From Dehalococcoidia bacterium (GTDB lineage: Bacteria > Chloroflexota > Dehalococcoidia > UBA2979), in assembly GCA_004296805.1 (NCBI GenBank), contig SCVR01000117.1:1-34626 (forward strand): a stretch of DNA of 34,626 nucleotides, given 5' to 3'. Every line of letters starts with the position of its first letter. The stretch's first letter is position 1. A program made the position numbers and the translations under genes. Below are positions 13,161 to 34,167 of this stretch, in pieces. The notes under the pieces are model-generated. The model made no database searches, was not told the origin of the DNA, and was given only the letters and a program-made list of their open reading frames with translations.

Positions 13161-14865
<1,705 letters not shown>

Positions 14866-14905
14866 CCAGAATTCCCCGTTCTTTCAGTCTCTGACGGAAC
14901 ACTCA

Positions 14906-14927
14906 GGGGGCCGGGAAACCGGCCCCC
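14906..14927 (+). terminator. Hairpin terminator candidate after groEL
   Basis: GGGGGCCGG-GAAA-CCGGCCCCC, 9-bp perfect stem with GNRA tetraloop, 40 bp after the stop. Confidence 0.75.
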
Positions 14928-14974
14928 TTCCGCGTGCCGAAGACCGCTCCTACGCTCGATCGAGGCGGTCCCCC

Positions 14975-15427
14975 ATGACAAACGACAACGGTTTGACGCT
15001 CGACATCGATGCGCTGCTTGAAGCAGCGGCCGACACAGACGTGCTTGTGATCGGCTTCGACTTCATGGCGGAGCGGATCGTCGTCGACTTCCGCGCGGAT
15101 AACCGCGAACGGTCGCTCCCTCTGCTGGAATTGGCCCCGCCGATGGCGGACGCGCAGGAACGGGTCGCGTGGCTGGCCGAACGGCGCCCCGCGCTAGCGT
15201 CACCTGATCGCTTCCTGTTCTTCGTCTGGCCGCACACGATCAAGACACTGGCGGACTCACCAGTGATCGACCGCATCCTCGTCCGCCTCCGCGACGAGCA
15301 TGGCGTGGACTACCGCTCTGCGTGCGCGCGACTCATCGCAGACGTGCGGCGCGCGGAACACGCGGAACGCCTCGCGGCGATCCGCGGCACCGATGGCTTC
15401 GAGACGCTGTGGGAGCGCGAACGCTAG
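14975..15427 (+). CDS. Hypothetical protein
   Basis: 150-aa ORF beginning MTNDNGLTLDIDALLEAAADTDVLVIGFDFMAERIVVDFRAD; GAGG upstream; no family recognised. Confidence 0.65.
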   Translation: MTNDNGLTLDIDALLEAAADTDVLVIGFDFMAERIVVDFRADNRERSLPLLELAPPMADAQERVAWLAERRPALASPDRFLFFVWPHTIKTLADSPVIDRILVRLRDEHGVDYRSACARLIADVRRAEHAERLAAIRGTDGFETLWERER

Positions 15428-15436
15428 TCGGTCTGT

Positions 15437-16906
15437 CTACGAGGCCGTCCACCACGGTGCGTCACGATCGTCAGGGGCACCTCGGCCGATGAAGATGGAG
15501 ACCAGCGCGGCCGCGACCATGACCACAACGCCCGCCACGAAGACCTCGCGGAAGGTCACGACCTGCGCCTCGCTGATGAGGCGGTCGAAGTCGGGTGAGC
15601 CAAACTCCGCCTGTGAGGCACGCGCGTAGAAGCGCCCGAGGCCCGTCGAGGTCAGCACGGCCGTCCCGAGGAGCATGCCGGTCACCCGCGAGAGCGTGAG
15701 CCATGCGCTGACGGTCGCCCGTGAGTTCTCGGCGACACCGTGGAGTACGGCTGCCCCCAGGGGAGCGATCACGAGGCCAAAGCCGAGACCGCCGATGACC
15801 TGCGGACCGCTGCGGAGTACCTGAGAGAGCGGCGTGTCCCACGCCTGGAGCCCCAGGAAGCCAGTGGCGGCAAGCAGCATGCCGATGCTGGCCGTGAGCC
15901 GGAGTCCGAGGCGCGAGCCCAACCAGCCGCCTGCCAGCGCCCCTACTGGCACTGCCGCCGTCAGCCGCATCAGCGTGAACCCACCGTCGAGTGGCGATTC
16001 GACGAGCACGAGGTTCACAAACAGCGGCACGCCCACGAGGGCGGTGATCAGGCCGCATCCCAGCAGGACGCTCGCCAGGTTCGCCGCCAGCACCTCGCGG
16101 CGGGCAAGCAGCGAGGGCCGCACCATCGGTTCGGGCGTATGCGCTTCGTGCCACCAGAAGGCGGCCATGACGGCGAGCGCCGCTGCGACCATCGCCAGCG
16201 TGGTGACGAGGGGCCGGGTGTCGTTGGGGTCATCTACGAATGCGAACGTGAGGATCGTGAGCGACAGTCCGAGCAGGGCAGCCCCCGGCCAGTCGATGCG
16301 GCCTCGTTGTCGCTCGTCGCCAGCAAGCCGCCAGATCGCGTAGCCGATGGGAGCCGCCATCGGCAGGTTCACCCAGAACACCCAGCGCCATCCGGCGATG
16401 TCGGTGATGACTCCGCCCCACAACGGGCCAAGCAGCGCCCCGCCTTCCGAGGCTGCGGCGATGGCGCCGAGGCCGAGCAGGCGCTTCCCCTGCGGCACCT
16501 CGGCGGCCACGATCGCCATCGCGACCGGGACGACGCCGCCGCCGCCGACGGCCTGCAGCGCGCGTGCCATGACGAGCCACGTATAGCCGTGCGAGACAGC
16601 CACCAGGGCACTGCCCACGACGAAGAAGCCGATACAGGCGGCAAAGACGCGCGCCCGCCCGTACACGTCGGCGATGCGGCCGACGATCGGCAAGGCCACG
16701 AGGTAGCCGAGGAGGTAGCCGTTCACGATCCAGGACGATCGATAGAAGTCGTCCACGGTGAGACCGATGTCGCTGATGATCGAGGGGAGCAGCGTGACGA
16801 TCGAGGTCTGGTCGTCCGCCGCGACGAAGACACCGAGGGCGACCCAGGCGATCAGGGCGCGCGCCTTCCGGTCAGAGGCCATCGGGGTCGTCAACTCGCG
16901 GGCCAC
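15437..16906 (-). CDS. MFS transporter, P55 (Rv1410c)-like, DHA2/EmrB class
   Basis: SSWIVNGYLLGYLVALPIVGRIADVYGRARVF...GGLGFGLVIAPLGAAVLHGV...SRVTGMLLGTAVLTSTGLGRFYARASQ...; start overlaps the stop of the lprG-like gene by 1 nt. Confidence 0.9.
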   Translation of the reverse strand: MARELTTPMASDRKARALIAWVALGVFVAADDQTSIVTLLPSIISDIGLTVDDFYRSSWIVNGYLLGYLVALPIVGRIADVYGRARVFAACIGFFVVGSALVAVSHGYTWLVMARALQAVGGGGVVPVAMAIVAAEVPQGKRLLGLGAIAAASEGGALLGPLWGGVITDIAGWRWVFWVNLPMAAPIGYAIWRLAGDERQRGRIDWPGAALLGLSLTILTFAFVDDPNDTRPLVTTLAMVAAALAVMAAFWWHEAHTPEPMVRPSLLARREVLAANLASVLLGCGLITALVGVPLFVNLVLVESPLDGGFTLMRLTAAVPVGALAGGWLGSRLGLRLTASIGMLLAATGFLGLQAWDTPLSQVLRSGPQVIGGLGFGLVIAPLGAAVLHGVAENSRATVSAWLTLSRVTGMLLGTAVLTSTGLGRFYARASQAEFGSPDFDRLISEAQVVTFREVFVAGVVVMVAAALVSIFIGRGAPDDRDAPWWTAS

Positions 16907-17610
16907 TACTTCGGGGCGTCGATCTGGATTGACTCATCGAACTTCGAGAGCGTGAGGCGCCGCAGCAGGTCGACTGGCTCACCGTCGCTCACAGCGCCCT
17001 CGATTTCGACGCGGACAAGCACCGGGTCGTCCACGCCGACCCACACGCGCGCCTTTAGTTTTCGTCCCGGGGCCGCGTTGGCGGCGAACAGCGTCATCTT
17101 CCCCGAGTCGACTGAGGCCTCGATGCGGTAGGTGGAACGGCCGCCGAGGTCCTCGCGGGCGACGACCTTCGCGTCCGTGGCGCCTCGCATGAGCGCGGTG
17201 ACACCGATGGCCGGGTCGAAGAAGGAGGCAACAGAGATCGTCTCCTCCTCCCACCGGCCGGTGACGGGGTTCGTGATGTAGGAGTGCCCCGGGAGGGCGA
17301 TGATCCCCACGGCGATGTTGAGCGGGCCTGCCTTCGCCTTCGCGTCCAGCCGCAGGCGGTCGGGGGGGACCACGTCGCCGCTGGCGGTGACCATCTGGAG
17401 GTTGCGGACGATCTGGGTCGTGCCCTTCTCGTGCTCCAGTTCGAAGTGGAACGCCTTGACCTTGTCCATGCGCTCCGCGCCGCGCCTTAGCACGTCGGCG
17501 GCGTCCACCTTCGAGACGTCGCTGCTCCCACCTCCCCGGCAAGCCGTGGCGAGCACCCCACCGAGCAGGGCAACAAACAGCACGGCGATCAGGCCCGCAC
17601 GACGACGCAT
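16906..17610 (-). CDS. lprG: LppX_LprAFG family lipoprotein (LprG-like)
   Basis: Lipobox LATAC; ADVLRRGAERMDKVKAFHFELEHEKG...YRIEASVDSGKM...LTLSKFDESIQIDAPK. Confidence 0.82.
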   Translation of the reverse strand: MRRRAGLIAVLFVALLGGVLATACRGGGSSDVSKVDAADVLRRGAERMDKVKAFHFELEHEKGTTQIVRNLQMVTASGDVVPPDRLRLDAKAKAGPLNIAVGIIALPGHSYITNPVTGRWEEETISVASFFDPAIGVTALMRGATDAKVVAREDLGGRSTYRIEASVDSGKMTLFAANAAPGRKLKARVWVGVDDPVLVRVEIEGAVSDGEPVDLLRRLTLSKFDESIQIDAPK

Positions 17611-18659
17611 CAGCGGACTTCCAGCGCGGCCGGGCCCGCCTCGACGTGGCCGATACGCCAGCAGCCTCCGGTCTGTGCCTCGATGGTCGAACGCAGGCGC
17701 TCGGCGTCCGCCGCGGCGACGGCGATGAGCAGCGGGCCAGAGGTCTGCGGATCGAAGAGCAGCGTGACCAGTGACTCATCGAGGCCGGCCGGCAGCGTCA
17801 CACGGTCGGCGAGCTGGGCACGGTTCCGCCCGCCGCCGCCGGTCGAAACGCCCTCGGCGGCGAAACGCTGCGCGTCGGGCAGCGCTGGCACGCGTGCGGC
17901 CTCGATGACGAGGCGGGCGTCCGAGCGGTCGGCCATCTCGCGCGCGTGGCCCATGAGCGAGTAGCCCGTGATGTCGGTCATCGCGTGGGCCCCGTGGGCG
18001 ACTGCCGCTTCCGAGGCTGCGCGGTTGAGCATGAGCATCGAGGTCACGGCAGCGTTGTAGCCGGCCTCGTGGCCCTCGCGTTGCTCCTTCGCGGCGGTCA
18101 TCAGGAGGCCGGTGCCGATGCGCTTTGTGAGCAACAGGACATCCCCGGGGAGCGCGCCGGCCTTCTTCATGATCCGCGCGGGGTCGATGATGCCCGTGAC
18201 GGAGAGGCCATACTTCGGCTCGGGGTCGAAGATCGTGTGGCCCCCGGCGATCACACCGCCCGCCTCCGCCACTTTCGCGGCGCCGCCTCGGAACACCTCG
18301 GTCAGCAGCGCGACGTCGAGGTCTTCGGGCCACGCGGCGATGTTGAGCGCGAGGCGGACCTGACCGCCCATCGCGTAGACATCGGACATGGCGTTCGCGG
18401 CTGCGATCGCGCCGTACGTGTACGCGTCGTCGACGACCGGCGGGAAGAAGTCGAGCGTCTGGACGATGGCGACCCCCGGGGCGACCTCGTAAACAGCCGC
18501 GTCATCGGCGCCATCGAGGCCGACGAGCAGTTCCGGATGCGCGCCAGCATGGAAGCCGGGGACGTTCCCGAGCACCTCGGCAAGCGTCCCGATGCCCATC
18601 TTCGCCGCGCACCCCGCGCACGATGCCAAGCCGGTGAGCCGGAACGCCTGTGTCGCCAT
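17610..18659 (-). CDS. selD: Selenide, water dikinase
   Basis: LTGLASCAGCAAKMGIGTLAEVL...DDAAVYEV...VQTLDFFPPVVDDAYTYGAIAAANAMSDVYAMGG...GGHTIFDPEPKYGLSVTGI; start at ATG with SD GAGGGGG. Confidence 0.96.
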   Translation of the reverse strand: MATQAFRLTGLASCAGCAAKMGIGTLAEVLGNVPGFHAGAHPELLVGLDGADDAAVYEVAPGVAIVQTLDFFPPVVDDAYTYGAIAAANAMSDVYAMGGQVRLALNIAAWPEDLDVALLTEVFRGGAAKVAEAGGVIAGGHTIFDPEPKYGLSVTGIIDPARIMKKAGALPGDVLLLTKRIGTGLLMTAAKEQREGHEAGYNAAVTSMLMLNRAASEAAVAHGAHAMTDITGYSLMGHAREMADRSDARLVIEAARVPALPDAQRFAAEGVSTGGGGRNRAQLADRVTLPAGLDESLVTLLFDPQTSGPLLIAVAAADAERLRSTIEAQTGGCWRIGHVEAGPAALEVR

Positions 18660-18711: not shown

Positions 18712-19392
18712 ATGCCCCGGAAGCCTGCTGCCGCCCCGCCGCTCTGGTCGCCCGCCGAGATCATCGCCATCCTCGACGAGGCGTACGGGCGGGCGCCGCA
18801 GCAAGCGTCGCGGGCGCCGCTGTTCGAGTTGGTGCTGACGCTGCTGTCGCAGCACACCTCCGACCACAACTCGGGGGAGGCGATGCACCGGCTGGTGGAG
18901 CGCTTCCCCACGTGGGATGAGGCGCTCGCGGCGCCGGTCGAGGCGATCGAGGACGCGATCCGGGCGGGCGGGCTGGCGCCGACGAAGTCGAAGCGGCTGC
19001 ACGCGCTGCTGGCCGAGGTGCACGAGCGGCGGCCGGACTGGAACCTCGACTTCCTGGAGACGATGCCACTGGAGGACGCGAAGGCGTGGCTGACGAGCAT
19101 CAATGGGGTTGGGCCGAAGACGGCGGCGTGCGTGCTGCTGTTCGCCCTCGGCCGGCCGGCGCTGCCGGTGGACACGCACGTCGAGCGCGTCGCGAAACGC
19201 CTCGGGTTGGTGCCGGCGAAGATGCCGGCGGACAAGGCGCACGCGGCCCTCGAGTCGATGCTCGCGCCTGACGAGGTGTATGCGTTCCACGTCGATCTGA
19301 TCCAGCACGGCCGCCGGACGTGCCATGCGCGCGGCCCGAAGTGCGAGGGCTGCCCACTCCTCGAGCGGTGTCCGCAGGTGGGTGTGGTCTAG
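18712..19392 (+). CDS. nth: Endonuclease III-type DNA glycosylase with Fe-S cluster
   Basis: INGVGPKTAACVLLFALGRPALPVDTHVERVAKRLG (HhH, catalytic Lys and Asp) and C-x6-C-x2-C-x5-C (CHARGPKCEGCPLLERC). Confidence 0.92.
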   Translation: MPRKPAAAPPLWSPAEIIAILDEAYGRAPQQASRAPLFELVLTLLSQHTSDHNSGEAMHRLVERFPTWDEALAAPVEAIEDAIRAGGLAPTKSKRLHALLAEVHERRPDWNLDFLETMPLEDAKAWLTSINGVGPKTAACVLLFALGRPALPVDTHVERVAKRLGLVPAKMPADKAHAALESMLAPDEVYAFHVDLIQHGRRTCHARGPKCEGCPLLERCPQVGVV

Positions 19393-20545: not shown

Positions 20546-20626
20546 ATGACCATCACGCGCGCTCACTGCCACACCGCCGCTGTGCGTGTGCGCCGCGCGC
20601 GTACGGGCGTCCGCCGCCTCGGCTAG
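20546..20626 (+). CDS. Candidate arginine-rich leader peptide (attenuator)
   Basis: MTITRAHCHTAAVRVRRARTGVRRLG*: 7 Arg in 26 residues, SD AAGGAGG upstream, located between a promoter and argJ. Confidence 0.6.
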   Translation: MTITRAHCHTAAVRVRRARTGVRRLG

Positions 20627-20681
20627 CGCCGCGCGTCGGGCACCCCGTCACTCAGCCTCACCCCTACCTCGGAGTCTCACC

Positions 20682-21923
20682 ATGCCACACCCCACGCCAG
20701 AACCCGCGGGCCTCGTCTGGATCGAAGGCGGCCACGTCACCACGCCGACCGGATTCGTGGCGGGTGGCGCCTACGCAGGCATCAAGACCTATGGCGATGA
20801 CCCACGCCTCGACATCGGCATCCTCGGGGGCGAGGGACCGCTGACGGTCGCCGGCATCTTCACGAAGAACGCCGTCACCGGGATCTCAGTGACGTGGGAC
20901 AAGGCGATCCTCGCGGAGCGCCGTGTCGTGCGCGGCCTCGTCTGCAACTCCGGCAACGCGAACACCGTGACCGGCGACCAGGGCGAGCGCGACTGCGCGC
21001 AGATGGCCGCGCTCGCGGCGGCGCGCCTCGGCTGCGACGCCCGCGAGGTGCTCGTCGGCTCAACGGGGGTCATCGGACGGCTGCTGCCGATGGACAAGGT
21101 CGAGCGTGGGTTGTCCGAGGTAGCCCTGACGAGCGACGGTGGACTCCGCTTCGCGCGCGCGATCATGACGACGGACACACACGAGAAGCAGTTCGCCGCC
21201 CAGATCGCCGCGGCGGGGCGCACCTACACGGTCGGCGGCTGCGCCAAGGGCGCGGGGATGATCCACCCGGACATGGCGACGATGTTCGCGTTCCTCACAA
21301 CGGACGCCCCGGCCGACCCTGCCTGGCTCGAAGCCACCCTGCGCGACATCGCTTCCCGCACGTACAACATGATCGACGTGGACATGGACACGTCCACGAG
21401 CGACACGGCGCTGATCCTCGCGTCCGGCCTCGCGGGCGGCGAGCCGCTGACGGCCGCGCACCCGGCGGCTGCCGCTGTCGCGGCAGCCCTGGAGGCCATC
21501 GCAGGCCGCCTCGCGCGCGGCGTCGCCCGCGACGCGGAGGGCGCCACGTGCCTGATCGAGGCCGTCGTGGAGGGTGCGGCGAGCGTCGAGGACGCGCGCC
21601 TCGTGGCCCGCACCATCACCTCGTCGCCGCTGATCAAGACGATGGTCACGGGACGCGACCCGAACTGGGGACGCGTGATGATGGCGGCCGGCCGCTCCGG
21701 CGCACGGTTCGAGGCCGCGCGCACCTCAGTGTGGATCGGCGACAACGAGGTGCTGCACGTTGGGCAGCCGACATCGGCGGACCTGGGGGCGGTGTCCCGC
21801 GCGATGGCCGGCGACGACGTGCAAATCCGCATTCACCTGGGCGCGGGCAACGCGGTGGCGACGGCCTGGGGCTGCAACCTGACCGCCGAGTACGTGAGCA
21901 TCAACGCGGACTACACGACTTAG
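20682..21923 (+). CDS. argJ: Glutamate N-acetyltransferase / amino-acid acetyltransferase ArgJ
   Basis: CNSGNANTVTGDQGERDC...VGSTGVIGRLLPMDKVE...GGCAKGAGMIHPDMATMFAFLTTDA...GRDPNWGRVMMAAGRSG. Confidence 0.97.
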   Translation: MPHPTPEPAGLVWIEGGHVTTPTGFVAGGAYAGIKTYGDDPRLDIGILGGEGPLTVAGIFTKNAVTGISVTWDKAILAERRVVRGLVCNSGNANTVTGDQGERDCAQMAALAAARLGCDAREVLVGSTGVIGRLLPMDKVERGLSEVALTSDGGLRFARAIMTTDTHEKQFAAQIAAAGRTYTVGGCAKGAGMIHPDMATMFAFLTTDAPADPAWLEATLRDIASRTYNMIDVDMDTSTSDTALILASGLAGGEPLTAAHPAAAAVAAALEAIAGRLARGVARDAEGATCLIEAVVEGAASVEDARLVARTITSSPLIKTMVTGRDPNWGRVMMAAGRSGARFEAARTSVWIGDNEVLHVGQPTSADLGAVSRAMAGDDVQIRIHLGAGNAVATAWGCNLTAEYVSINADYTT

Positions 21924-21953
21924 TCGACGCGTCCAGCACGAGGGGATCCGCAG

Positions 21954-22718
21954 ATGGCACGCACCACCGTCGTGAAGATCGGGGGGTCAACCCTCGGTTC
22001 TGAGGACACCACGTTGCAGGACATCGTTGCGATGCACCGCGCGGGCGACCGTCCTGTCGTGGTGCATGGCGGCGGCGCGATGATTACCGACTGGCTGAAG
22101 CGCCTCGACATTCCGTCCCAGTTCGTCGACGGCCTGCGTTCGACCAACGCTGAGGCGATCAATGTCGTCGTGGGCGTGCTGCGCGGGGTCGTGAACACAC
22201 AATTGGTCGGAGAGATCGTTGCGCTGGGCGGGCGGGCGGTCGGCCTCTGCGGCGTGGACGGAGCGCTCGTACAGGCCGAGCGGTACGACGAGCGCCTCGG
22301 CTTCGTCGGGCGCGTCACGGGCGTGAACGCCGAAGTGCTGGTGGGGCTGCTCGACAGCGGGGTCATCCCCGTGATCGCGCCAATCGGCCTCGAAGCGCCG
22401 TCACAGCCGCTCAACATCAACGCTGACACCGTGGCAGGCGAGGTCGCGCGAGCGCTGAAGGCTGACAGCCTGGTGTTCCTGACAGACGTGGACGGCCTGC
22501 TGGACTCACAGGGGGCCCTCGTGCCGGAGCTTGGGCATGCGCTGGCCGCCTCGATGCGGGAAAGCGGCGTCCTGGGCGGGGGTATGATCCCGAAGGTCGA
22601 AGCCTGCTTCCGGGCAGCGGAGGCCGGTGTGGCCGCATCGATGGCGAACGGCACCGTGCCCGGCATGCTGCGCCGGGTTGCCTCCGGCGAACGAGTGGGG
22701 ACGCGCATCGTGGCATAG
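21954..22718 (+). CDS. argB: Acetylglutamate kinase
   Basis: VVKIGGSTLG...VVVHGGGAMITDWLKRLDI...LNINADTVAGEVARALKADSLVFLTDVDGLLD...GGMIPKVEAC. Confidence 0.94.
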   Translation: MARTTVVKIGGSTLGSEDTTLQDIVAMHRAGDRPVVVHGGGAMITDWLKRLDIPSQFVDGLRSTNAEAINVVVGVLRGVVNTQLVGEIVALGGRAVGLCGVDGALVQAERYDERLGFVGRVTGVNAEVLVGLLDSGVIPVIAPIGLEAPSQPLNINADTVAGEVARALKADSLVFLTDVDGLLDSQGALVPELGHALAASMRESGVLGGGMIPKVEACFRAAEAGVAASMANGTVPGMLRRVASGERVGTRIVA

Positions 22719-22764
22719 GGGACGCGGCGAGCTGCTGCGGCGGCCACGACGACACAGGAGACGC

Positions 22765-25635
22765 ATGGGATTCCACGACGACGGTGAAGAACGCGGCAAC
22801 CTCGGCCCGCCGCCGGAGATCTTCCGGTTCGGTGGTATGGCCCGCGACCGTCGCCCACCTGCGGGCGCCTTGAAGTGGGTGGGCCTCGCCGCTGCTGCCG
22901 TCGTGATCTTCCTGACGCTGGACACGCTGAAGTCGATCTACGTGGACGTGCTGTGGTTCACGTCCGTGGGGTTCGGCTCCGTCTACAAGACGGTGGTGAT
23001 GTGGCAGGTCGTGCTGTTCGTCGCGGGCACCTTCATCACGGTCGCCGCGGTCGGCGGCAACATCTGGCTGGCGCGCCGCCTCGCGCCACAGGGCGTGGAT
23101 GAGTCGTTCCTGGAAGAAGTCGACCCTGAGGCGATCCGTCGCCTGGGCACCATCCTGCTGATCGCTGGCACGATCTTCCTCGGGCTGATCCTCGGCGCGG
23201 CCGCCTCGGGCGCGTGGCAGACGCTCGCGGCATGGCGAAACGCCGTCGAGTTCGGGCGAACCGATCCCCAGTTCAACCGCGACATTTCTTTCTACCTTTT
23301 CACCCTGCCGGCGTGGCACGCGATCCGCGCCTGGGTCCTCGGTGTGGTCACCGTCTCCCTGCTGGGCGCGGGCGCGGTCTATGCGCTCACGATGTCGCTG
23401 CAGCGGTTCGAGTTGAACATCACGCGCGCGATGCGCATCCACCTGTCGATCCTGGTTGCAATCCTGCTGCTCCTGATCACCGTCGGCTCGTATCTCGCGA
23501 TGTTCGACCTCGTCACCCGCGGGACGGGGATCGTCTACGGCGCCATGTACACCGACGTGAACGCGCGCCTACCTGTGCGGTATCTGCTGGTCGCCCTGGG
23601 CCTGTTTGCCACCGTCGTGACGGCGATCAACCCGTTCATGTCGGAGCGTGGCTATCGGGCGCCCGGGTTCGCCCTCGGCCTCTGGGTGTTCGCGGGGATC
23701 GTCGGCGGCGTGCTGTACCCCTCCACGATCCAGCGCTTCTCGGTCGAACCGAACGAGCGCCAGAAGGAAGAGCAGTTCATCGGCCGCAACATCGAGGCGA
23801 CGCGCTTTGCGTTCGGCCTCGACAAGGTGGAGGAGTCCCAGTACCCCGCGAACCAGGCCGTGACGCCGAAGGAGTTCGAGGAGAACCCGGAGACGATCCG
23901 GAACATCCGGCTGCTGGACCCGATCCCGTTGCTGGACACGTTCAACCAGATCCAGGCGATCCGGCAGTTCTACACGTTCCGCGATGTGGACGTGGACCGG
24001 TACAACATCGGCGGGCGTCCCCGCCAGGTGATGGTGGCGGCGCGAGAACTCGACGTGACGCGTGCGCAGGACCGGAACTGGACGCGCGAGCGCCTGCAAC
24101 TGACTCACGGCTTCGGCGCCGTGGTGTCACCGGTGAACGAGGTCCGTGAGGAGGGGCTGCCTATCCTGCTGACCTCGGACATTCCGCCGAAGTCGGACGT
24201 GCTGCCGCTGACGCCGGACGGATCGCGCATCTACTTCGGAGAACTGACCAACCACTACGTGGTCGGGCGATCAAGTGAGCCGGAGTTCGACTACCCGCTC
24301 GGCGAGGGCAACGCGGAAACGCACTATGTCCCCGACCGGGGGATCCGGATGAACTCCATCGTGCGACGGGCGGCGCTCGCGTGGCAGTTGGGCGACCAGA
24401 ACCTGCTGATCTCAGAGCGAGTGACCGCGGACTCGCGGCTCCTGATGCGACGGAACATCACCGAGCGCGTGAGCCACGTTGCGCCGTGGCTGCACCTGGA
24501 CAGTGACCCATACGCCGTCATCCTGGACGGCAAGGTGATGTGGCTGATGTCGGCGTACACCACGACCACGAAGTTCCCCTACTCGCAGCCGCGCGAGGGA
24601 GGTGTGAACTACATCCGGAACAGCGTCACGGTCACGGTGGACGCGCAGACCGGGGACATGCGGTTCTACCTGCAGGACCCCACCGACCCGATCGCCTCGA
24701 CGTGGGCGAAGGTGTTCCCGGGTCTGCTCCACCCGATGTCCGAGCTCCCCCCGGGTCTGCGCGAGCACCTGCGCTATCCACTCGATCTCTTCAAGATGCA
24801 GTCGCAGACGTACCTGCGCTACCACATCACCGACGCGAACGTGCTGTTCATCGGCGAGGACGCGTGGAACATCCCGACCGAGCGGTTCCGTGACCAGGAG
24901 CAGCCGGTCGAGCCGTATTACGTCGTGATGTCCCTGCCGCGCGGGGATGGCAAGCCTGAAGGCAAGTCCGAGTTCGTCCTGATCATGCCGTTCACGCCGC
25001 GACAACGGCAGAACACCGTGGCGTGGCTCGCGGGGCGCTCGGACGGCGACCTCTACGGTGGCCTCCGTGGCTATCGATTCCCCACCGAGGCACTGGTCTT
25101 CGGGCCGGCGCAGATCGAGGCGCGGATCGACCAGAACCCGGGCATCTCCGCGCAACTGACGCTGTGGAACCAGTCCGGGTCGCAGGTGATCCGCGGCAAC
25201 CTGCTGATGATCCCCGTAGGGTCCTCGTTCCTCTTCGTCGAGCCGATCTACCTCCAGGCTGAGAACTCGAGGCTTCCGGAACTCGTGCGCGTTGTGGTCG
25301 CCAACGGCAACAACGTGGCGATGGAGAAGACGTTGACCGAGGCGATCGAGGTGTTGCTCGGCAAGCGCCAGTCCTCGCTGCCGGGGGCCACGCAGCAGCC
25401 CGGACAGACTCCGGGCAACCAGGCCGGCCAGCCGGGGGCGCAGCCCACGCCTGCTCCGACGCCTGCCGCGGGTGCGACGCCGAGGGCGATCCCGACGGGT
25501 GACCTCCAGAAGTTGCTGGAGGAGGCACAGAGGAGCCAGCAGACGACGCAGGCCGAGCTGGACCGTCTGAAGCAGATCCTGGACGCGATCCAGCGACAAC
25601 TCGGGCCCACGCCGACACCAACGCCATCCCGGTAG
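22765..25635 (+). CDS. UPF0182 family large membrane protein with Pro/Gln-rich C-terminal tail
   Basis: N-terminal TM helices, long soluble domain (YGEL... VVGRSSEPEFDYPLGEGNAETHY...GVNYIRNSVTVTVDAQTGDMRFY...), typical UPF0182; start trimmed to internal ATG. Confidence 0.93.
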   Translation: MGFHDDGEERGNLGPPPEIFRFGGMARDRRPPAGALKWVGLAAAAVVIFLTLDTLKSIYVDVLWFTSVGFGSVYKTVVMWQVVLFVAGTFITVAAVGGNIWLARRLAPQGVDESFLEEVDPEAIRRLGTILLIAGTIFLGLILGAAASGAWQTLAAWRNAVEFGRTDPQFNRDISFYLFTLPAWHAIRAWVLGVVTVSLLGAGAVYALTMSLQRFELNITRAMRIHLSILVAILLLLITVGSYLAMFDLVTRGTGIVYGAMYTDVNARLPVRYLLVALGLFATVVTAINPFMSERGYRAPGFALGLWVFAGIVGGVLYPSTIQRFSVEPNERQKEEQFIGRNIEATRFAFGLDKVEESQYPANQAVTPKEFEENPETIRNIRLLDPIPLLDTFNQIQAIRQFYTFRDVDVDRYNIGGRPRQVMVAARELDVTRAQDRNWTRERLQLTHGFGAVVSPVNEVREEGLPILLTSDIPPKSDVLPLTPDGSRIYFGELTNHYVVGRSSEPEFDYPLGEGNAETHYVPDRGIRMNSIVRRAALAWQLGDQNLLISERVTADSRLLMRRNITERVSHVAPWLHLDSDPYAVILDGKVMWLMSAYTTTTKFPYSQPREGGVNYIRNSVTVTVDAQTGDMRFYLQDPTDPIASTWAKVFPGLLHPMSELPPGLREHLRYPLDLFKMQSQTYLRYHITDANVLFIGEDAWNIPTERFRDQEQPVEPYYVVMSLPRGDGKPEGKSEFVLIMPFTPRQRQNTVAWLAGRSDGDLYGGLRGYRFPTEALVFGPAQIEARIDQNPGISAQLTLWNQSGSQVIRGNLLMIPVGSSFLFVEPIYLQAENSRLPELVRVVVANGNNVAMEKTLTEAIEVLLGKRQSSLPGATQQPGQTPGNQAGQPGAQPTPAPTPAAGATPRAIPTGDLQKLLEEAQRSQQTTQAELDRLKQILDAIQRQLGPTPTPTPSR

Positions 25636-25676
25636 TCCGAGGGCAGCGCACCAGTCAGTCAGCAGAGGAGCGAGCG

Positions 25677-26882
25677 GTGAGCGATATCCCAACACGGGAC
25701 GCAGCGGTGCACATGACGAACTACCGGCGCATGCCGGTCACGATCGTGCGTGGCGAAGGCAGCCGTGTCTGGGACACCGAGGGCCGCGAGTACCTGGACT
25801 TCATCCAGGGCGTCGCCGTGAATTCGCTCGGACATGCGAACCCAGGCCTCGCAGACGTGATCGCGAAGCAGGCGCACACGCTGATGGCCACCTCGAACCT
25901 CTTCTACACCGAGGAGCGCACGCGGCTGGCTGAACTCCTCGTCGCGAACTCGGTCCTTGACCGCGTCTTCTTCTGCAACTCCGGTGCAGAGGCCGTGGAG
26001 GGCGCGATCAAGATCGCGCGCAAGTGGGGGATCCAGAACCGGGAGGGGGCGTACGAGATTATCTCGACGCACAACTCGTTCCATGGACGCACCCTCGCGG
26101 CCGTCGCCGCGACCGGGACACCGCACTACCGCGAGCCGTTCGGCCCGCCGATGCCGGGCTTCGTCTTCGTCGACTACAACGACGTCGAGCAGATCAAGGC
26201 CGCGACCACACCTCGGACATGCGCGGTGTTGCTCGAGCCAATCCAGGGTGAGGGCGGCGTGAACGTCCCGGATGCCGACTACCTGAAGCGCGTGCGGGCG
26301 TGGTGCGACGAACAAGGGATCCTGCTGATCCTGGACGAGGTGCAGACCGGCGTCGGGCGCACGGGGACGATGTGGGCATACGAGCAGGCTGGCATCGAGC
26401 CGGACATCATGACGTCCGCGAAGGGGCTCGGCGGGGGTATGCCGATCGGTGCGGTGCTGGCGAAGGAGGCCTACGCAGTCTTCGAACCCGGCGACCACGG
26501 GTCCACCTTCGGCGGAAACTCGCTGGCGGTCGCAGCGGGTGCGTACGTCATCACCCAGATGATCGACGGGGGTGTGATCGCGAACGCCATGGCACGCGGG
26601 GATCAACTGGCGCGGCGGTTGGCGGCCCTTGAGGATGTGTCGCCGCTGGTCGGCGGACAGCGCGGCGCGGGCCTCCTGCGGGGCCTGGAACTCACGGCCG
26701 ACGTCGCGCCTGAGGTGGTCGCGCGCTCGCTCGAACGCGGGCTGATCCTCAACCCGGTCCGGCCCAACGTGGTGCGGTTCATGCCGCCCCTGACCGTGAC
26801 GGCGGAGGAGATCGACCGCGCGGTCGAGATCGTCGGCGGGGTCGTCAGAGACCTCGCCGCCGAGCGAGCAGCGGCCCGATAG
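25677..26882 (+). CDS. argD: Acetylornithine aminotransferase
   Basis: GEGSRVWDTEGREYLDFIQGVAVNSLGHANPGL...FFCNSGAEAVEGAIKIARKW...ILDEVQTGVGRTGTMWAYEQAGIEPDIMTSAKGLGGGMPIGAVL. Confidence 0.95.
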   Translation: MSDIPTRDAAVHMTNYRRMPVTIVRGEGSRVWDTEGREYLDFIQGVAVNSLGHANPGLADVIAKQAHTLMATSNLFYTEERTRLAELLVANSVLDRVFFCNSGAEAVEGAIKIARKWGIQNREGAYEIISTHNSFHGRTLAAVAATGTPHYREPFGPPMPGFVFVDYNDVEQIKAATTPRTCAVLLEPIQGEGGVNVPDADYLKRVRAWCDEQGILLILDEVQTGVGRTGTMWAYEQAGIEPDIMTSAKGLGGGMPIGAVLAKEAYAVFEPGDHGSTFGGNSLAVAAGAYVITQMIDGGVIANAMARGDQLARRLAALEDVSPLVGGQRGAGLLRGLELTADVAPEVVARSLERGLILNPVRPNVVRFMPPLTVTAEEIDRAVEIVGGVVRDLAAERAAAR

Positions 26883-26949
26883 GCCGTCGCGCCCGCGCAC
26901 GCTGCGCGAGGGCTAGGATGGGCGCGGCGGGCGGGACGCAGGGGGCGCG

Positions 26950-29598
26950 ATGAGCGGGCTGTTCAACCGGCTCGCGGTGCAAACCGCGCTTTTCGCCATC
27001 GCCGTCCTCGTGCTCGTCGGGATCGTGCTGGCCATCCAGGTGGGCGCCGCCGTTGGCAAGAACGAGGAAGACCACTACAACGATCACATCCGGCGCGGCC
27101 GCGACCAGCTCCAGGAGCAGGTCACGACGTTCGCCAACCTCACGGAGACCGGCGCCGTGGTGCTGTCCGGGAGTCCTGAGCTGCGCGAGGCGGTCGCGAA
27201 GCGTGATGTCGCCGCAGCACTGAAGGCCGCCACCAACTTCTCGGAGATCGTCGGTACCCCGTTCCAGGGCACGCCTGGCATGCAGTTGTACGACGCCAGG
27301 GGCACTCTGCTGGTCCGGGCGCACACTCCGCTGAACAACCGTCAGCAGATCACACCGACCGAGGTCGCCCGCGTCCTCCGTGACGGCCAGTCGATCGGCG
27401 GCGTCCGTCACGATGAGTTGCTCGGCCTCGTGCTCTCGGGAGTGGCAGCGATCCGCAACTCGGATGGGGCCATCGTCGGGGCGATCGAGGTGATGTCCAC
27501 CATCGACTCCTCGTTCGCCATGGACCGGGCGAAGGCGTTGGGTATGAACGTCGCCATTTTCGACAAGGGCGGCGTGGTCGCCTCGTCCGAGGGCGACCTC
27601 CGGCTGGGCCCGGAGGAGATCACGAGAGCCGTCGCGGCCCAACAGAAGGATGGGACGGCGACCGTGATGGCAGGAGCCGAGAAGTACCTCTCAGCGTTCG
27701 TACCGCTGGCCTCTCCGAGCGGTGCCGAACTCGGGTACCTTTACGTCGGCATCGATGAGGGCGAGATCGACCAGGCGATCGCCGCGACCCGCCTCCGCAT
27801 GCTGCGGAGCGTGGCGCTGGCAACCGCGGCGGCAGCGGTACTGGGATGGGGCGCATCCCTGTTGGCGATCCGGCCGATCCAGTCGTTGGCCCAAGCGGCC
27901 CGACGGATCCAGGCCAACGATCTCGAAAGCGCGGTACCAATCGCGGGCCCAGCGGAGATCCGAGGACTCGGAGAAGCACTCGACGACATGCGCCTCGCGA
28001 TCCGGGAGGGCCGTGAGGCCATGCTCCTGGCCAACCGTGACCTGGCCGCACAGTTCGACGTGTCCACCGTCACCCTGACGGAGGTCACGCACGACCTGAC
28101 GGTGATCCAAGCGGTGCTCTCGCACCTCTCGGGCGAACGCTCCGGTGGCCTCGCCGGGGCAGCCGAGGAACTCGCCGATCTCGCGTGGCTGGACGGCGTG
28201 TTCGTGGCGGTTGCGACCGAAGCTGGTGACCTATCGGTCGCAGCGGTGGCGAACCTGGCTCCGGGGACGGCAGACGTCACGTTGAACCTCGCCCGGCAAC
28301 GCGTGGACGGCGACCTCTCCCGCGAATGGGAGGTCACGGATACCTCCGCCAACGGGGATACGGCTCGCCTCGCCGCATGGGGCGTCGGCGGCGTCTTCAT
28401 GACGCCGATGCTTACCCCCGACGGTGTGGCGGGCGTCCTCGCTATCACGTCCGCCGGACCGCTGAGCCTCACGGAGCGCCGACGTGACCTGGTCCGATCG
28501 GTGACGCGCGAGGTTGCGGCCACGCTTGAGCGCACGGAACTGCAGGACGAGGTCGATGAGAACCGTCGGATCGCGGAGGCCGTCCTCCGGGAGATGTCAG
28601 ACGGCGTGCTGGTGGTCGACCAGGAAGGGATCTGCCGGATCGCTAACCCGGCCGCGATCCGCCTGCTCGGCCGGGGACGCGCGGACATGATCGGGCAGCC
28701 ATGGGGCGCCTTCATCCCCCTCGCGGCCGAGACCCTTGAAGCGTTGCGGCTTCGGGCGTACCACCCAACCGGGCTTCCGGCTGCTCCCGCAATCCTCGCG
28801 TTGCGCGACCGACAGCTGGCCGTGACCTCCGGCCCGTTCCCTGACCCGGACCCCTCGCGCTCCGGCATGCTCGTCCTGCTCCGAGACCTCTCCGCAGAGG
28901 CCGAGGCGGAGCGCGTCAAGCAGGACTTCGTCTCCATGGTGGGGCACGAACTCCGCACACCCCTCACCTTGATCCGCACGACGATCGACCTCCTGTTCGA
29001 AGGCGACGCAGGAGCGCTGAACACCACGCAGAGCCGAATCGTCGAAGTGTTGCGTAACAACGCCGACCGCTTGATGTCGCTGATCACCGACCTTCTCGAC
29101 ATGTCGGCCCTTGACTCCGGGCGCATGCAGATCAACCCCGCGAATGTGGAGATCGATGCGATCGTCCGGGGGGTGATGGAAGATGTGCAGGGGACGGCAA
29201 CCGCGAAGCAACACTCGCTCCGAGCGGAGGTCCCCACCTCGCTCACCGTGTGGGCAGATGCAGTGCGCGCCCAGCAGATCCTCCAGAACCTCGTGGGGAA
29301 CGCGATCAAGTACACACCCGTCGGCGGCGTGATCGAGGTGCGGGTGCGCGAGGTGCCGGGCGGGTTCGTCGAGGTCTCCGTACGCGACGATGGCATCGGG
29401 ATCCCACCCGAGGAGCAGGCCCACCTGTTCGAGAAGTTCTACCGGACGACGGCGGGCCGCCGGACGACCGGTGGCACCGGCCTCGGACTGGCAATCGCGA
29501 AGTCGTTCGTCGAACTGCACGGGGGCCAGATCTGGTGCGAATCGGACGGGCGTTCGGGATCGCGCTTCGTCTTCACCCTACCGCGACGCCGGGTATGA
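26950..29598 (+). CDS. Membrane sensor histidine kinase (periplasmic sensor, HAMP, GAF-like/PAS, HisKA, HATPase_c)
   Basis: FVSMVGHELRTPLTLIRTTIDLL (H-box), NAIKYTPVGG (N-box), DDGIGIPPEEQAHLFEKFYR, GGTGLGLAIAKSFVELHGGQIW (G-boxes); HAMP after the second TM. Confidence 0.96.
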   Translation: MSGLFNRLAVQTALFAIAVLVLVGIVLAIQVGAAVGKNEEDHYNDHIRRGRDQLQEQVTTFANLTETGAVVLSGSPELREAVAKRDVAAALKAATNFSEIVGTPFQGTPGMQLYDARGTLLVRAHTPLNNRQQITPTEVARVLRDGQSIGGVRHDELLGLVLSGVAAIRNSDGAIVGAIEVMSTIDSSFAMDRAKALGMNVAIFDKGGVVASSEGDLRLGPEEITRAVAAQQKDGTATVMAGAEKYLSAFVPLASPSGAELGYLYVGIDEGEIDQAIAATRLRMLRSVALATAAAAVLGWGASLLAIRPIQSLAQAARRIQANDLESAVPIAGPAEIRGLGEALDDMRLAIREGREAMLLANRDLAAQFDVSTVTLTEVTHDLTVIQAVLSHLSGERSGGLAGAAEELADLAWLDGVFVAVATEAGDLSVAAVANLAPGTADVTLNLARQRVDGDLSREWEVTDTSANGDTARLAAWGVGGVFMTPMLTPDGVAGVLAITSAGPLSLTERRRDLVRSVTREVAATLERTELQDEVDENRRIAEAVLREMSDGVLVVDQEGICRIANPAAIRLLGRGRADMIGQPWGAFIPLAAETLEALRLRAYHPTGLPAAPAILALRDRQLAVTSGPFPDPDPSRSGMLVLLRDLSAEAEAERVKQDFVSMVGHELRTPLTLIRTTIDLLFEGDAGALNTTQSRIVEVLRNNADRLMSLITDLLDMSALDSGRMQINPANVEIDAIVRGVMEDVQGTATAKQHSLRAEVPTSLTVWADAVRAQQILQNLVGNAIKYTPVGGVIEVRVREVPGGFVEVSVRDDGIGIPPEEQAHLFEKFYRTTAGRRTTGGTGLGLAIAKSFVELHGGQIWCESDGRSGSRFVFTLPRRRV

Positions 29599-29642
29599 TC
29601 AGGCCGTCCTGACCCGTCCCTGACCACCCCACTGAGGCCCAC

Positions 29643-30878
29643 ATGCCCGAGAAGATCGTCCTCGCCTACTCCGGTGGACTCGACACCTCCGTTGCCGCGC
29701 ACTGGCTGCGCGTCGAGCGCGGCTATGAGGTCCACTGCCTGACGGTCGACCTGGGCGCGCTCGGGGATGTCGAGGGCGCCCGCCGCCGCTCGGCCGAGGC
29801 AGGCGCCGCGAGCATCGACGTCGTGGACGCACGCGAGGACTTCCTGCGCTACTTCGTCTTCCCGGCCCTGCAGGCCAACGTCCTCTACGAGGGGCGATAC
29901 CCGCTCGCGACGGCGCTGGGGCGACCATTGATCGCGAAGTTGCTGGTGGACAAGGCGCGCGCTGTGGGCGCGACCGCGGTGGCACACGGCTGCACCGGCA
30001 AAGGCAACGACCAGGTACGCCTCGACGTCGGCGTGCAGACGCTGGCGCCGGATCTCCAGATCGTCGGCACGACGCGTGAGCACTCGATCTCGCGGGACGA
30101 GGCGCTCGCGTACGCGGCGAAGCACGGCATCTCCGTGCGGCAGACACTCGCCTCGCCGTATTCCACCGACGAGAACCTGTGGGGGCGCTCGATCGAAGCC
30201 GGCATCCTTGAGGACCCGTGGCTGGCCCCGCCCGAGGATGTGTACGAGTGGACGAAGCCGCTCGACCAGACTCCCGCGAAGCCGGTGGTCGTAGAGATCC
30301 GCTTCGAGCAGGGGATCCCGGTGGCGCTCGATGGCGAGGCGCTCGGCCCGGTCGCACTCGTCGAGCGGCTGAACGCCCTCGGCGGTGAGCACGGCATAGG
30401 CCGCATCGACATGATCGAGAACCGCCTCGTGGGGATTAAGTCGCGGGAGATCTACGAGTCGCCGGCGGCCGTGATCCTGCTGGAGGCGCACCAGATCCTG
30501 GAGCAACTGACGCTCACGAAGCAGCAGGTGCGCTTCAAGGACCGCGTCGGCCAGGAGTACGCCGACCTCGTGTACAACGGCTTGTGGTTCACTTCGCACC
30601 ACCGCGACCTCGCGCAGTACGTGACGAGCACGCAACGGCACGTCACCGGGGACGTGAAGTTGCGCCTCTGGCACGGCACGATCTCCGTGCAGGGCCGCCG
30701 CGCAGAGAAGAGCCTCTACTCGCAGCAGCTGGCGACGTACAACAAAGAGGGCGACCTGTTCGACCAGTCGCACGCGGCGGGCTTCATCCGACTCCACGGC
30801 CTGCAGGCGCAGATCCAGGCCCACCGTCAGATGCTGACGGAGCCGGGCGACCTGCTCCGCCTCGCCAGCCCGGAGTAG
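29643..30878 (+). CDS. argG: Argininosuccinate synthase
   Basis: KIVLAYSGGLDTSVAAHWL...VAHGCTGKGNDQVR...VGIKSREIYESPAA. Confidence 0.98.
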   Translation: MPEKIVLAYSGGLDTSVAAHWLRVERGYEVHCLTVDLGALGDVEGARRRSAEAGAASIDVVDAREDFLRYFVFPALQANVLYEGRYPLATALGRPLIAKLLVDKARAVGATAVAHGCTGKGNDQVRLDVGVQTLAPDLQIVGTTREHSISRDEALAYAAKHGISVRQTLASPYSTDENLWGRSIEAGILEDPWLAPPEDVYEWTKPLDQTPAKPVVVEIRFEQGIPVALDGEALGPVALVERLNALGGEHGIGRIDMIENRLVGIKSREIYESPAAVILLEAHQILEQLTLTKQQVRFKDRVGQEYADLVYNGLWFTSHHRDLAQYVTSTQRHVTGDVKLRLWHGTISVQGRRAEKSLYSQQLATYNKEGDLFDQSHAAGFIRLHGLQAQIQAHRQMLTEPGDLLRLASPE

Positions 30879-30937
30879 CCGAGGCCGCGACGCACTGGAC
30901 ACGGCACGGATACTGAGGCGGCATTGGGAGCCGCGTC

Positions 30938-31474
30938 ATGAACTGGCTGATCGTCGCCCCGGTCGTCGCAGCAAAGTTCCTGCTGCCGATCGCCCTCATC
31001 CCGTTCCCGTTTCTGGCGGGATGGGCGAACTTCGTGCTCGACACCGTCGACGGCGACCTGCTGATCCCGGCGGGCCTCGGCAATTCGCTCGACCCGAACG
31101 AGAACCACCTCTACCAGAACATCGACAAGGCCGCGGACTACGTCACCTACATCTGCATGGTGATCGCGGCATGGAAGTGGCCGGTCAGGCGCTGGATCAT
31201 CGCGTTCTTCGTGCTCCGCACGATCGGGCAGACGGCGTTCTTCGTCACCCAGAACGAGTTGATGCTGCTGTTCTTCCCGAACTTCCTTGAGCCGCTGTTC
31301 TTGGTCTGTGCCACGCTGCTCCATTTCAAGCGGGCCGCCGCGTGGGACCACCTGACGAAGTACCGCTTCGTGTACGGGCCACTCATCTTCATCTACAAGA
31401 TGCAGGACGAGGTGCTGACACACCTCGTCGACTTCGACCGCTCGGAGGCGATCGGCCGGCTCTTCGGCGGTTGA
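30938..31474 (+). CDS. Small multi-pass membrane protein, unknown
   Basis: 178-aa ORF with 4 or more hydrophobic segments and conserved-looking acidic patches (LDTVDGD, NIDKAADY). Confidence 0.7.
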   Translation: MNWLIVAPVVAAKFLLPIALIPFPFLAGWANFVLDTVDGDLLIPAGLGNSLDPNENHLYQNIDKAADYVTYICMVIAAWKWPVRRWIIAFFVLRTIGQTAFFVTQNELMLLFFPNFLEPLFLVCATLLHFKRAAAWDHLTKYRFVYGPLIFIYKMQDEVLTHLVDFDRSEAIGRLFGG

Positions 31475-31533
31475 CGGAGCCGGACGACTACCGCGTTTGC
31501 TATCGTGCCTCCCCACCGATGGGAGGCATGACG

Positions 31534-32025
31534 ATGAAACCGATCCGAGCGAACCTTTGGTTCGACACTCAGGCCGAGGACGCGGCGCGCTTCTACATCA
31601 GCGTGTTCAAGGATTCGAAGATGGGGAGCATCACGCACTCCCCGGAGGCTGGCCAGGAGATCACGAACCTGCCTCCGGGCAGCGTGCTCACCGTGACGTT
31701 CGAACTCAACGGACAACCCTTCCTCGCCCTCAACGGCGGCCCTGCCTTCACCTTCAGCGAGGCGATCTCCTTCGAACTCCCCTGCACGGATCAGGCCGAA
31801 CTGGACTACTACTGGGACCGGCTCTCCGAGGGCGGTGACCCGGCCGCACAGAATTGCGGGTGGCTGAAGGACAAGTTTGGTGTCTCCTGGCAGGTCGTCC
31901 CGGAGAACTGGGAGGCGATGGCGACCGACCCCGACCAGGCGAAGGTGGAGCGCGTGATGGCGGCCATGTTCGAGATGAAGAAGCTCGACTTTGCCGCGCT
32001 GCAGCGGGCATTCGACGGCACCTAG
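31534..32025 (+). CDS. PhnB-like VOC family protein
   Basis: KPIRANLWFDTQAEDAARFYISVFKDSKMGSITHSPEAG...LALNGGPAFTFSEAISFELPC...GWLKDKFGVSWQVVPENW; SD GGGAGG. Confidence 0.92.
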   Translation: MKPIRANLWFDTQAEDAARFYISVFKDSKMGSITHSPEAGQEITNLPPGSVLTVTFELNGQPFLALNGGPAFTFSEAISFELPCTDQAELDYYWDRLSEGGDPAAQNCGWLKDKFGVSWQVVPENWEAMATDPDQAKVERVMAAMFEMKKLDFAALQRAFDGT

Positions 32026-32089
32026 CCCGGACGCCTCGGCTGCCGGATTCGCCGTCGCACCCAACCGAGGCCTCGTGTAGCCTCCGTCC

Positions 32090-33493
32090 ATGACGCAGCC
32101 CAGCGAAGGCTCCTCGAAACTCTGGGGTGGCCGGTTCTCCGGCGAGACCGACGCGCTCGTCGAGACCTTCAACGCTTCGATCGCGTTCGACCAGCGCCTC
32201 TACGCCGAGGACATCGAGGGCTCCATCGCGCACGCGGGGATGCTCGCCGCGCAGGGCATCATCTCGACGGAAGACCGGGACGCGATCATCCCGGCGCTTG
32301 AGGCGATCCGGTCTGAGATCGACGCCGGGACCTTCCAGTTCCGCCTCGACCGCGAGGACATCCACCTCAACATCGAGGCGGCGCTCACTGAGCGGATCGG
32401 CGACGCGGGCCGGCGCCTGCACACCGGCCGCTCACGCAACGACCAGGTCGCCACCGACACCCGTCTGTACACGCGCGCCGCCTGCGACGCGATCATCGAC
32501 GCCCTGCGCGCCCTGCGGGCCGCCTTCCTCGACCTCGCGGAGCGCGAGGCTGCCACCGCGATGCCCGGCTACACGCACCTCCAGCGCGCGCAGCCGATCT
32601 TGCTCGCGCACCACCTGCAGGCGTATGAGGCGATGCTCGCGCGGGACACCGAGCGATTCACACAGGCCCGTGCGCGCGCGAACGTGCTGCCACTCGGTGC
32701 CGCCGCCCTCGCCGGCGCGACCTACCCGATCGACCGCGCAGCCGTCGCGAAGGCGCTCGGCTTCGATGCCGTCGCCGAGAATTCGCTCGACGCGGTCTCT
32801 GACCGGGACTTCGTCGTGGATGTGCACTCCGCGGCCGCCCTTGCCATGGTGCACCTCTCGAGGTTTGCCGAGGAGGTCATCCTCTGGGCGACGGCCGAGT
32901 TCGGCTTCTTGCGCCTCGACGACCGCTACTCGACGGGGTCGAGCATCATGCCGCAGAAGAAGAACCCGGATGTGGCCGAACTCACGCGCGGCAAGAGCGC
33001 GCGCGTCATCGGCAACCTCGTCCAGGCGCTCACCATGCTCAAGGGGCAGCCGCTCGCCTACAACAAGGACAACCAGGAAGACAAGGAGTCACTGTTCGAC
33101 ACCGTCGACACGCTGCTCATCTGCCTGCGCGTCACGACCGGCATGCTTCCGACCATGAGGTTCGACCACGAGCGCATGCGTGCCGCCGCGGTCGCCAACT
33201 TCGCCCTCGCCACCGATGTCGCGGACTACCTCGCGAAGAAGGGGATCCCCTTCCGTGACGCACACGAGGCCGTGGGCAACCTCGTTGCGCGCTGCGAGCG
33301 CGAGGGACGCACCTTCGAGGACCTGAGCGTTGAGGACTTCCAACTCGCGCATCCGGCGTTCGAGGCGGACGTCCTCGCAATCGACCTCGACACGGCTCTG
33401 GCCGCGCGCGATGTGCCCGGCGGCACGGCACCGAGGCGCGTCACGGAGGCGCGTGCCGCGGCGCGCGCCCGACTGGCCGCGGAGCGCCACTAG
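32090..33493 (+). CDS. argH: Argininosuccinate lyase
   Basis: KLWGGRFSGETDALVETFNASIAFDQRLY...HTGRSRNDQVATDTRLY...GYTHLQRAQPI...GSSIMPQKKNPDVAELTRGKSARV. Confidence 0.99.
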   Translation: MTQPSEGSSKLWGGRFSGETDALVETFNASIAFDQRLYAEDIEGSIAHAGMLAAQGIISTEDRDAIIPALEAIRSEIDAGTFQFRLDREDIHLNIEAALTERIGDAGRRLHTGRSRNDQVATDTRLYTRAACDAIIDALRALRAAFLDLAEREAATAMPGYTHLQRAQPILLAHHLQAYEAMLARDTERFTQARARANVLPLGAAALAGATYPIDRAAVAKALGFDAVAENSLDAVSDRDFVVDVHSAAALAMVHLSRFAEEVILWATAEFGFLRLDDRYSTGSSIMPQKKNPDVAELTRGKSARVIGNLVQALTMLKGQPLAYNKDNQEDKESLFDTVDTLLICLRVTTGMLPTMRFDHERMRAAAVANFALATDVADYLAKKGIPFRDAHEAVGNLVARCEREGRTFEDLSVEDFQLAHPAFEADVLAIDLDTALAARDVPGGTAPRRVTEARAAARARLAAERH

Positions 33494-34167
33494 TGCCGCG
33501 GGCGCTGATCGCCCCGAGCATCCTCACCGCCGACTTCGGCCGCCTCGCCGAGCAGGCACGGGCCGCTGAGGCCGGCGGCGCTGACCTCTGGCACCTCGAC
33601 GTCATGGACGGCCACTTCGTCCCGCCGATCTCGTTTGGCCGTGAGGTGATCGCCGCCGTCCGCGCCGCCTCCGCCCTGTTCATCGAGGCGCACTTGATGG
33701 TGGCGAAGCCGGGCGAGCAGTTCGCCGACATGGCGGCGGCCGGCGCCCAGCGGCTTGTCTTCCACTACGAGGCCGTACGCGACCTCGACGCCGCGCGTGA
33801 GCATCTGGCGGCCGTGCACGCCCTCGGCTGCGAGGCTGGCATTGCGATCAACCCCGAGACGCCCGCCGAGGCGCTCTTCCCGCTGCTTGACGCCCTCGAC
33901 GAGGTCGTGGTGATGCTGATCCGTCCGGGCTGGGGCGGCCAGCAGATGCAACCAGCGCTCCTCGACAAGGTGCGCACACTGCGCGCCCGCGCAGACGCCA
34001 GCGGCCTCGTGTTGCCCATCGAAGTCGACGGGGGCGTGAAGGCGCACAACGCCTCGATGTGCGTGGACGCGGGCGCCACGCTGCTGGTGGCGGGAAGCGC
34101 GACGTTCAACCGCGAGCAGACGCCGGAGCAGGCGCTGGCGGAGTTGCGGGCGAGTCTCGAAAACTAG
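33493..34167 (+). CDS. rpe: Ribulose-phosphate 3-epimerase
   Basis: IAPSILTADFGRLAEQARAAEAGGADLWHLDVMDGHFVPPISFG...EVDGGVKAHNASMCVDAGATLLVAGSATF; GTG start overlaps the argH stop (TAGTG). Confidence 0.96.
   Translation: MPRALIAPSILTADFGRLAEQARAAEAGGADLWHLDVMDGHFVPPISFGREVIAAVRAASALFIEAHLMVAKPGEQFADMAAAGAQRLVFHYEAVRDLDAAREHLAAVHALGCEAGIAINPETPAEALFPLLDALDEVVVMLIRPGWGGQQMQPALLDKVRTLRARADASGLVLPIEVDGGVKAHNASMCVDAGATLLVAGSATFNREQTPEQALAELRASLEN

Follow-up and report, generated by a model that had tools for sequence, protein, structure and literature searches.

The overlapping genes at one locus of a Dehalococcoidia bacterium raise the question of whether a lipid-export system known from mycobacteria also operates in a very different host. 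Work on LprG and P55 has treated them as a factor in the virulence and permeability of mycobacteria that is bound up with the mycomembrane. A sequence-only reading of 34,626 nucleotides of this bacterium (the window, which is contig C24 of a draft genome of 2.6 Mb and 88.6% completeness) proposed that the same lipoprotein–transporter pair lies there, outside Actinobacteria and behind selD, and asked which lipid and envelope it might serve and why selD is part of the operon. We conclude that the two proteins are probably a true lipid-export pair of the LprG–P55 (Rv1411c–Rv1410c) type in an apparently monoderm member of the Dehalococcoidia, with selD as a neighbor by position only.

Results

Three overlapping genes in a recurring gene order

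The locus and its flanks are summarized in Table 1.

Table 1. Features of the locus and its flanks, in window coordinates
Feature	Position	Strand	Basis
selD, selenide water dikinase (Cys form, active-site CAGCAAK)	17610..18659	-	TIGR00476
LprG-like lipoprotein (PF07161), lipobox Cys24 (LATAC)	16906..17610	-	Pfam, AlphaFold model
P55/Rv1410-type DHA2 MFS transporter, E154/R407, D32/R115	15437..16906	-	PDB match, residues, tree, model
nth, endonuclease III-like DNA glycosylase; divergent flank of the slot	18712..19392	+	PF00730; same neighbor in relatives
groEL; convergent flank of the slot	13252..14865	+	TIGR02348, 766 bits; same neighbor in relatives
194-aa protein between groEL and the MFS gene	14843-15427	+	recurs beside groEL in relatives

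The sequence-only reading had described three overlapping minus-strand genes. Their places are as described and each junction overlaps by 1 nt, but the first junction, given as ATGA, is actually TGATG (17612–17608), in which the selD stop TGA (17612–17610) and the lipoprotein ATG (17610–17608) share 1 nt. The second junction is TAGTG (16908–16904), where the GTG start of the MFS gene overlaps the lipoprotein stop by 1 nt at 16906; an alternative ATG start lies eight codons inside the GTG. As for selD, it runs from ATG 18659 to TGA 17610, with a possible alternative start at TTG 18674. The gene order recurs in relatives and is thus more than chance, and the closest MFS relatives of the window protein come from Dehalococcoidia/Chloroflexi metagenome genomes. 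The 194-aa protein matched no family in Pfam or NCBIfam, and an Rfam search of the window and the selA contig gave no match. Farther along the window (20586–34167), argJ and the genes for argininosuccinate synthase and argininosuccinate lyase are scattered among those for a UPF0182 protein and a sensor kinase.

The lipoprotein is closest to LprG by profile and predicted fold

The lipoprotein had been assigned to the LppX_LprAFG family, which is borne out by a score of 56.7 bits against a Pfam gathering score of 24 (PF07161). It has a signal peptide with the lipobox at residues 20–24, and Cys24 is invariant in 62 homologs. Single-sequence matches to LprG and LppX are weak and near-equal (~3e-4), and only profile and fold separate them. 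When searched against the PDB, a profile built from Chloroflexota members only matched LprG at 1.2e-27, LprF at 3.6e-18, and LppX at 1.3e-12. The AlphaFold model (pLDDT 89.6) has the expected LprG fold, its best PDB matches being the LprG structures 3mh9, 3mha (PIM-bound), 3mh8, and 4zra (TAG-bound), with TM-scores of 0.78–0.81 by target.

The transporter groups with Rv1410-type proteins

The P55-like features named for the MFS protein are literally present in its sequence (WIVNGYLLGY, GLGFGLVIAPL, and RVTGMLLGTAVLTSTGLGRF). Its best PDB sequence match is 8pnl, the Rv1410 ortholog MHAS2168 from M. hassiacum (6.5e-50), followed by EfpA (4e-30), EmrB (~1e-17), and a QacA-kind antiseptic-resistance protein (9e-13), although overall identity to MHAS2168 is only ~30%. 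Against the EmrB-subfamily model TIGR00711 it scores 150.3 bits, under the curated cut-off of 230.2. In a 106-protein tree, which was built by a quick search with no bootstrap and has EfpA as a long branch, the P55 group containing MHAS2168 and the window MFS is split from 16 DHA2 paralogs and EfpA with an SH-aLRT of 100, which places the protein with the Rv1410 ortholog and away from ordinary DHA2 pumps, as the sequence-only reading had supposed.

An ion lock between a TM5 Glu and a TM11 Arg (E157/R426 in MHAS2168) is a functionally important hallmark that is kept in 17 mycobacterial homologs and missing in 46 characterized MFS transporters (Remm et al., PMC10576003). E154 and R407 of the window MFS align with these two residues. 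Among 114 lipoprotein-linked MFS proteins, the Glu is found in 90 (83 with Glu/Arg and 7 truncated before the Arg), while 20 have Thr instead, immediately preceded by an Asp (19 keep the Arg, 1 is truncated), and the others have Asp/Gln (three) or Asn/Trp (one). None of the 16 DHA2 paralogs from the same class has the Glu. The Thr-for-Glu subgroup (L002–L017, L116, L117, L124, L127, L130, and L138) includes named loci from Roseiflexus and Anaerolineales. The proteins in which both residues are changed together (L056, L057, L081, and L087) include those of Thermalbibacter and Thermomicrobiaceae. The N-domain Asp–Arg pair of Rv1410 (D22–R108) is also present, as D32 and R115, but is weak evidence for the P55 type because it is common in other DHA2 pumps.

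The AlphaFold model of the transporter (pLDDT 88.3) has 8pnl as its best PDB fold match (TM-score 0.86), and its helices fit a 14-TM DHA2 protein with linker helices at 206–223 and 233–256. TM11 and TM12 are predicted to be long helices, at 393–430 (38 residues) and 440–470 (31 residues). R407 is 57 residues from the center of TM12, compared to 65–72 in the actinobacterial members checked, so the putative hand-over element is shorter. A long TM11–TM12 segment was not supported as a mark of P55, since ordinary DHA2 paralogs are mostly longer there.

The pair is conserved across Chloroflexota and Actinomycetota

How widespread is this pairing? The lipoprotein family is present in 115 of 301 sampled Chloroflexota genomes (38%), a phylum name that was inferred from named relatives. 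Some public labels on the closest MFS relatives are plainly inconsistent, with members of one tight branch labeled Gemmatimonadetes, Thermoleophilia, or Thermoflexus, and species names can therefore serve only for orientation. In 27 of the 30 best lipoprotein loci, an MFS gene lies directly downstream on the same strand. Conversely, the lipoprotein gene is directly upstream in 74 of the best 80 named P55-type loci, a set of top hits rather than a census, which includes both Chloroflexota (Dehalococcoidia, Ktedonobacteria [Thermogemmatispora], Thermomicrobia, Roseiflexus, and Anaerolineales) and Actinomycetota (Mycobacteriaceae, Nocardiaceae, Pseudonocardiaceae, Micromonosporaceae, Thermoleophilia, and Gaiellales). 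The adjacency on which the earlier proposal depended is therefore conserved in relatives. No lipoprotein gene was found near any of the 16 DHA2 paralogs.

The two genes are as tightly packed in relatives (median gap -1 nt) as in the window. Lipoprotein and MFS distances correlate (r = 0.90, n = 62 pairs), with 0 of 999 permutations as high, and the correlation is 0.87 without the window's family. This co-divergence fits an old pair travelling together, although shared organismal history alone also gives such a correlation. The analysis shows homology, fold, residue pairs, linkage, and co-divergence, and the case for the same pair as in mycobacteria is firmer than first claimed. Outside Actinobacteria the pair is not rare, and in Chloroflexota it is ordinary rather than exceptional. 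In the literature searched, we found no paper joining LprG with Chloroflexi and no biochemistry on any Chloroflexota member of the pair.

Other arrangements also exist. In Herpetosiphon and a relative, the ion lock of the P55-type MFS is intact but no lipoprotein gene lies within 4 kb (L083, L085, L086, and L095). Three genomes (G331, G309, and G323) have a second, divergent lipoprotein–P55 pair (L159, L160, and L161).

selD occupies the same slot as the pair

SelD scores 348 bits against an NCBIfam cut-off of 125 (TIGR00476), with its reactive Cys in the N-terminal motif. In most relatives (L181–L203), the active-site residue is Sec, encoded by an in-frame TGA (CAG*AGK). This Sec/Cys switch occurs inside one family, where the Cys form is found in the window's genus and in genus g187. 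Since SelA, SelB, and tRNA-Sec are all present in the window genome, SelD serves selenocysteine. The remaining selenium gene proposed for the search, that for tRNA 2-selenouridine synthase, had no match over the cut-off, and this use of SelD was rejected.

The linkage of selD to the pair is conserved in the window's family, where the usual order is nth (divergent), selD–lprG–p55, and groEL (convergent), which recurs in about ten genera. The three genes also lie beside nth in a single genome from another family (L056/L168). Two genomes that are 96–97% complete (G306 and G315) keep lprG–p55 in the slot without selenocysteine genes, with no selA, no selD, no SelB over the cut-off, and only a borderline tRNA-Sec. 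Conversely, three genera (g186, g187, and g195) have selD in the slot without lprG–p55. These patterns indicate that the selD and lprG–p55 modules have been lost independently. Elsewhere in Chloroflexota and Actinomycetota, selD is mostly not near the pair among the best 80 loci. The linkage therefore looks positional, the best reading being that the genes share a slot on the chromosome and are not functionally coupled.

Envelope of the host and candidate substrate

WS/DGAT, the usual bacterial triacylglycerol (TAG) synthase, was found in none of the 36 genomes of the window's family and is missing from 97 of the 115 lipoprotein-carrying Chloroflexota genomes, although TAG may be made by other routes. 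A DGAT2-type search gave no match, but was uninformative because the controls gave none either. No Omp85 was detected in 36 relatives by a search that matched 7 of 14 control genomes. Among Dehalococcoidia, the cultivated members of the genus Tepidiforma are monoderm and have both peptidoglycan and an S-layer (PMC10284905). The mycobacterial pair carries TAG to the mycomembrane, and LprG also binds PIM, LM, and LAM (PMC4709180, PMC8829022). Since neither Omp85 nor WS/DGAT was found in the host family, this model, in which TAG is delivered to an outer membrane, cannot be adopted as it stands, and the more likely cargo is a lipid of the surface or wall layer other than TAG made by WS/DGAT. With moderate confidence, we favor as substrate a multi-acyl lipid of the surface that WS/DGAT does not make, with TAG from another route as the main rival.

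Discussion

Since fold, lock, and partner carry over, the mycobacterial mechanism, for which lateral extraction and hand-over to LprG have been proposed from structural work (PMC10576003), should carry over too. Through lateral openings, the transporter would draw a highly hydrophobic multi-acyl lipid out of the core of the cytoplasmic membrane, lift it upon formation of the E154–R407 ion lock, and pass it along a putatively extended TM11–TM12 hairpin to the lipoprotein, which is anchored in the membrane and would receive it in a hydrophobic pocket, with the proton gradient as the likely source of energy. We infer the act of transport, its direction, and its energy source by homology with the mycobacterial pair.

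Could the MFS protein instead be an ordinary multidrug DHA2 efflux pump of the EmrB/EfpA/QacA kind, with the lipoprotein as an unrelated or accessory neighbor? It does match MFS_1 and EmrB-like HMMs, and its fold likeness to EfpA, EmrB, and QacA is also high (TM-score 0.82–0.85), but it is nearer to MHAS2168 in sequence, in the tree, and by the E-value of the fold match, it keeps an ion-lock Glu that all 16 same-class paralogs lack, and its type is adjoined by the lipoprotein in nearly all of the best loci, which none of the paralogs is. An ordinary EmrB-type pump, which we consider very unlikely, was rejected on the tree and the ion lock. Even less credible is a functional unit in which selD, lprG, and p55 couple selenium metabolism to lipid export, for example through a selenium-dependent lipid step. 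The recurrence of the three-gene order in the family, and once beyond it, is what such a unit would predict, but it is at odds with the genomes that keep lprG–p55 after losing the selenocysteine genes, with the genera where only selD is left in the slot, and with the many loci elsewhere in which the pair has no selD nearby. A selenium–lipid link was rejected because the two modules have been lost independently from one slot.

The substrate is where an alternative has most weight. That the pair handles TAG exactly as in mycobacteria, placing it on the cell surface or releasing it, would agree with the conserved ion lock and fold, and WS/DGAT is commoner in Chloroflexota genomes with the lipoprotein (18 of 115) than in those without (10 of 186; Fisher p = 0.004). 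However, 17 of these 18 genomes belong to two families, for which reason this co-occurrence was set aside as evidence for TAG, and WS/DGAT is missing from the window's family and from most lipoprotein carriers. We regard TAG as unlikely, though a more serious contender than the other two, and favor a multi-acyl lipid not made by WS/DGAT.

Finding the same pair and functional signature in many Chloroflexota apparently without an outer membrane implies that the system does not require a mycomembrane. This is a known kind of system in a new host group, and what makes it interesting is the mismatch: the machine is conserved, yet the host apparently has no membrane of the type that it is supposed to serve. 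It is possible, although we suggest it tentatively, that LprG–P55 is an old envelope system common to Chloroflexota and Actinomycetota, which in single-membrane cells originally brought a multi-acyl lipid other than TAG to the surface and was later turned by mycobacteria to the TAG-sealing of the mycomembrane. If so, the subgroups with an altered ion lock, namely Thr/Arg with a preceding Asp (Roseiflexus/Anaerolineales) and Asp/Gln or Asn/Trp (Thermalbibacter/Thermomicrobiaceae), would be variants in proton coupling or substrate. Such natural variants could be used to study the mechanism, while the substrate question could be asked in non-pathogenic organisms, namely Thermogemmatispora, Thermalbibacter, and Roseiflexus relatives, which have the pair, and Herpetosiphon, which has P55 without an adjacent lipoprotein gene.

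Comparison with known systems

The lipoprotein shares a half-barrel lipid-binding fold with LolA/LolB and RseB, but these match it much more weakly than LprG does (TM-score ~0.3–0.5 vs. ~0.8, by target length). It belongs to the same Pfam family and has the same fold as LppX and LprF, the mycobacterial paralogs of LprG, but scores best with LprG by both profile and fold; LppX partners an MmpL transporter in mycobacteria, not an MFS protein (PMC4709180). The transporter has the general fold and DHA2 motifs of EfpA and the EmrB/QacA pumps. Unlike it, EfpA and the paralogs lack the ion-lock Glu and lie on a separate branch, and the paralogs have no LprG-type partner gene nearby. The window pair differs from mycobacterial LprG (Rv1411c)–P55 (Rv1410c) in its ~30% transporter identity, its shorter TM11–TM12 segment, the selD gene upstream, and a host without WS/DGAT and, in the absence of Omp85, without any sign of an outer membrane. 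With that same system, it shares protein families, gene order, overlapping genes, the LprG fold, and a 14-helix DHA2 transporter (PMC10576003, PMC4709180), in which D32/R115 and E154/R407 are equivalent to D22/R108 and E147/R417 of Rv1410.
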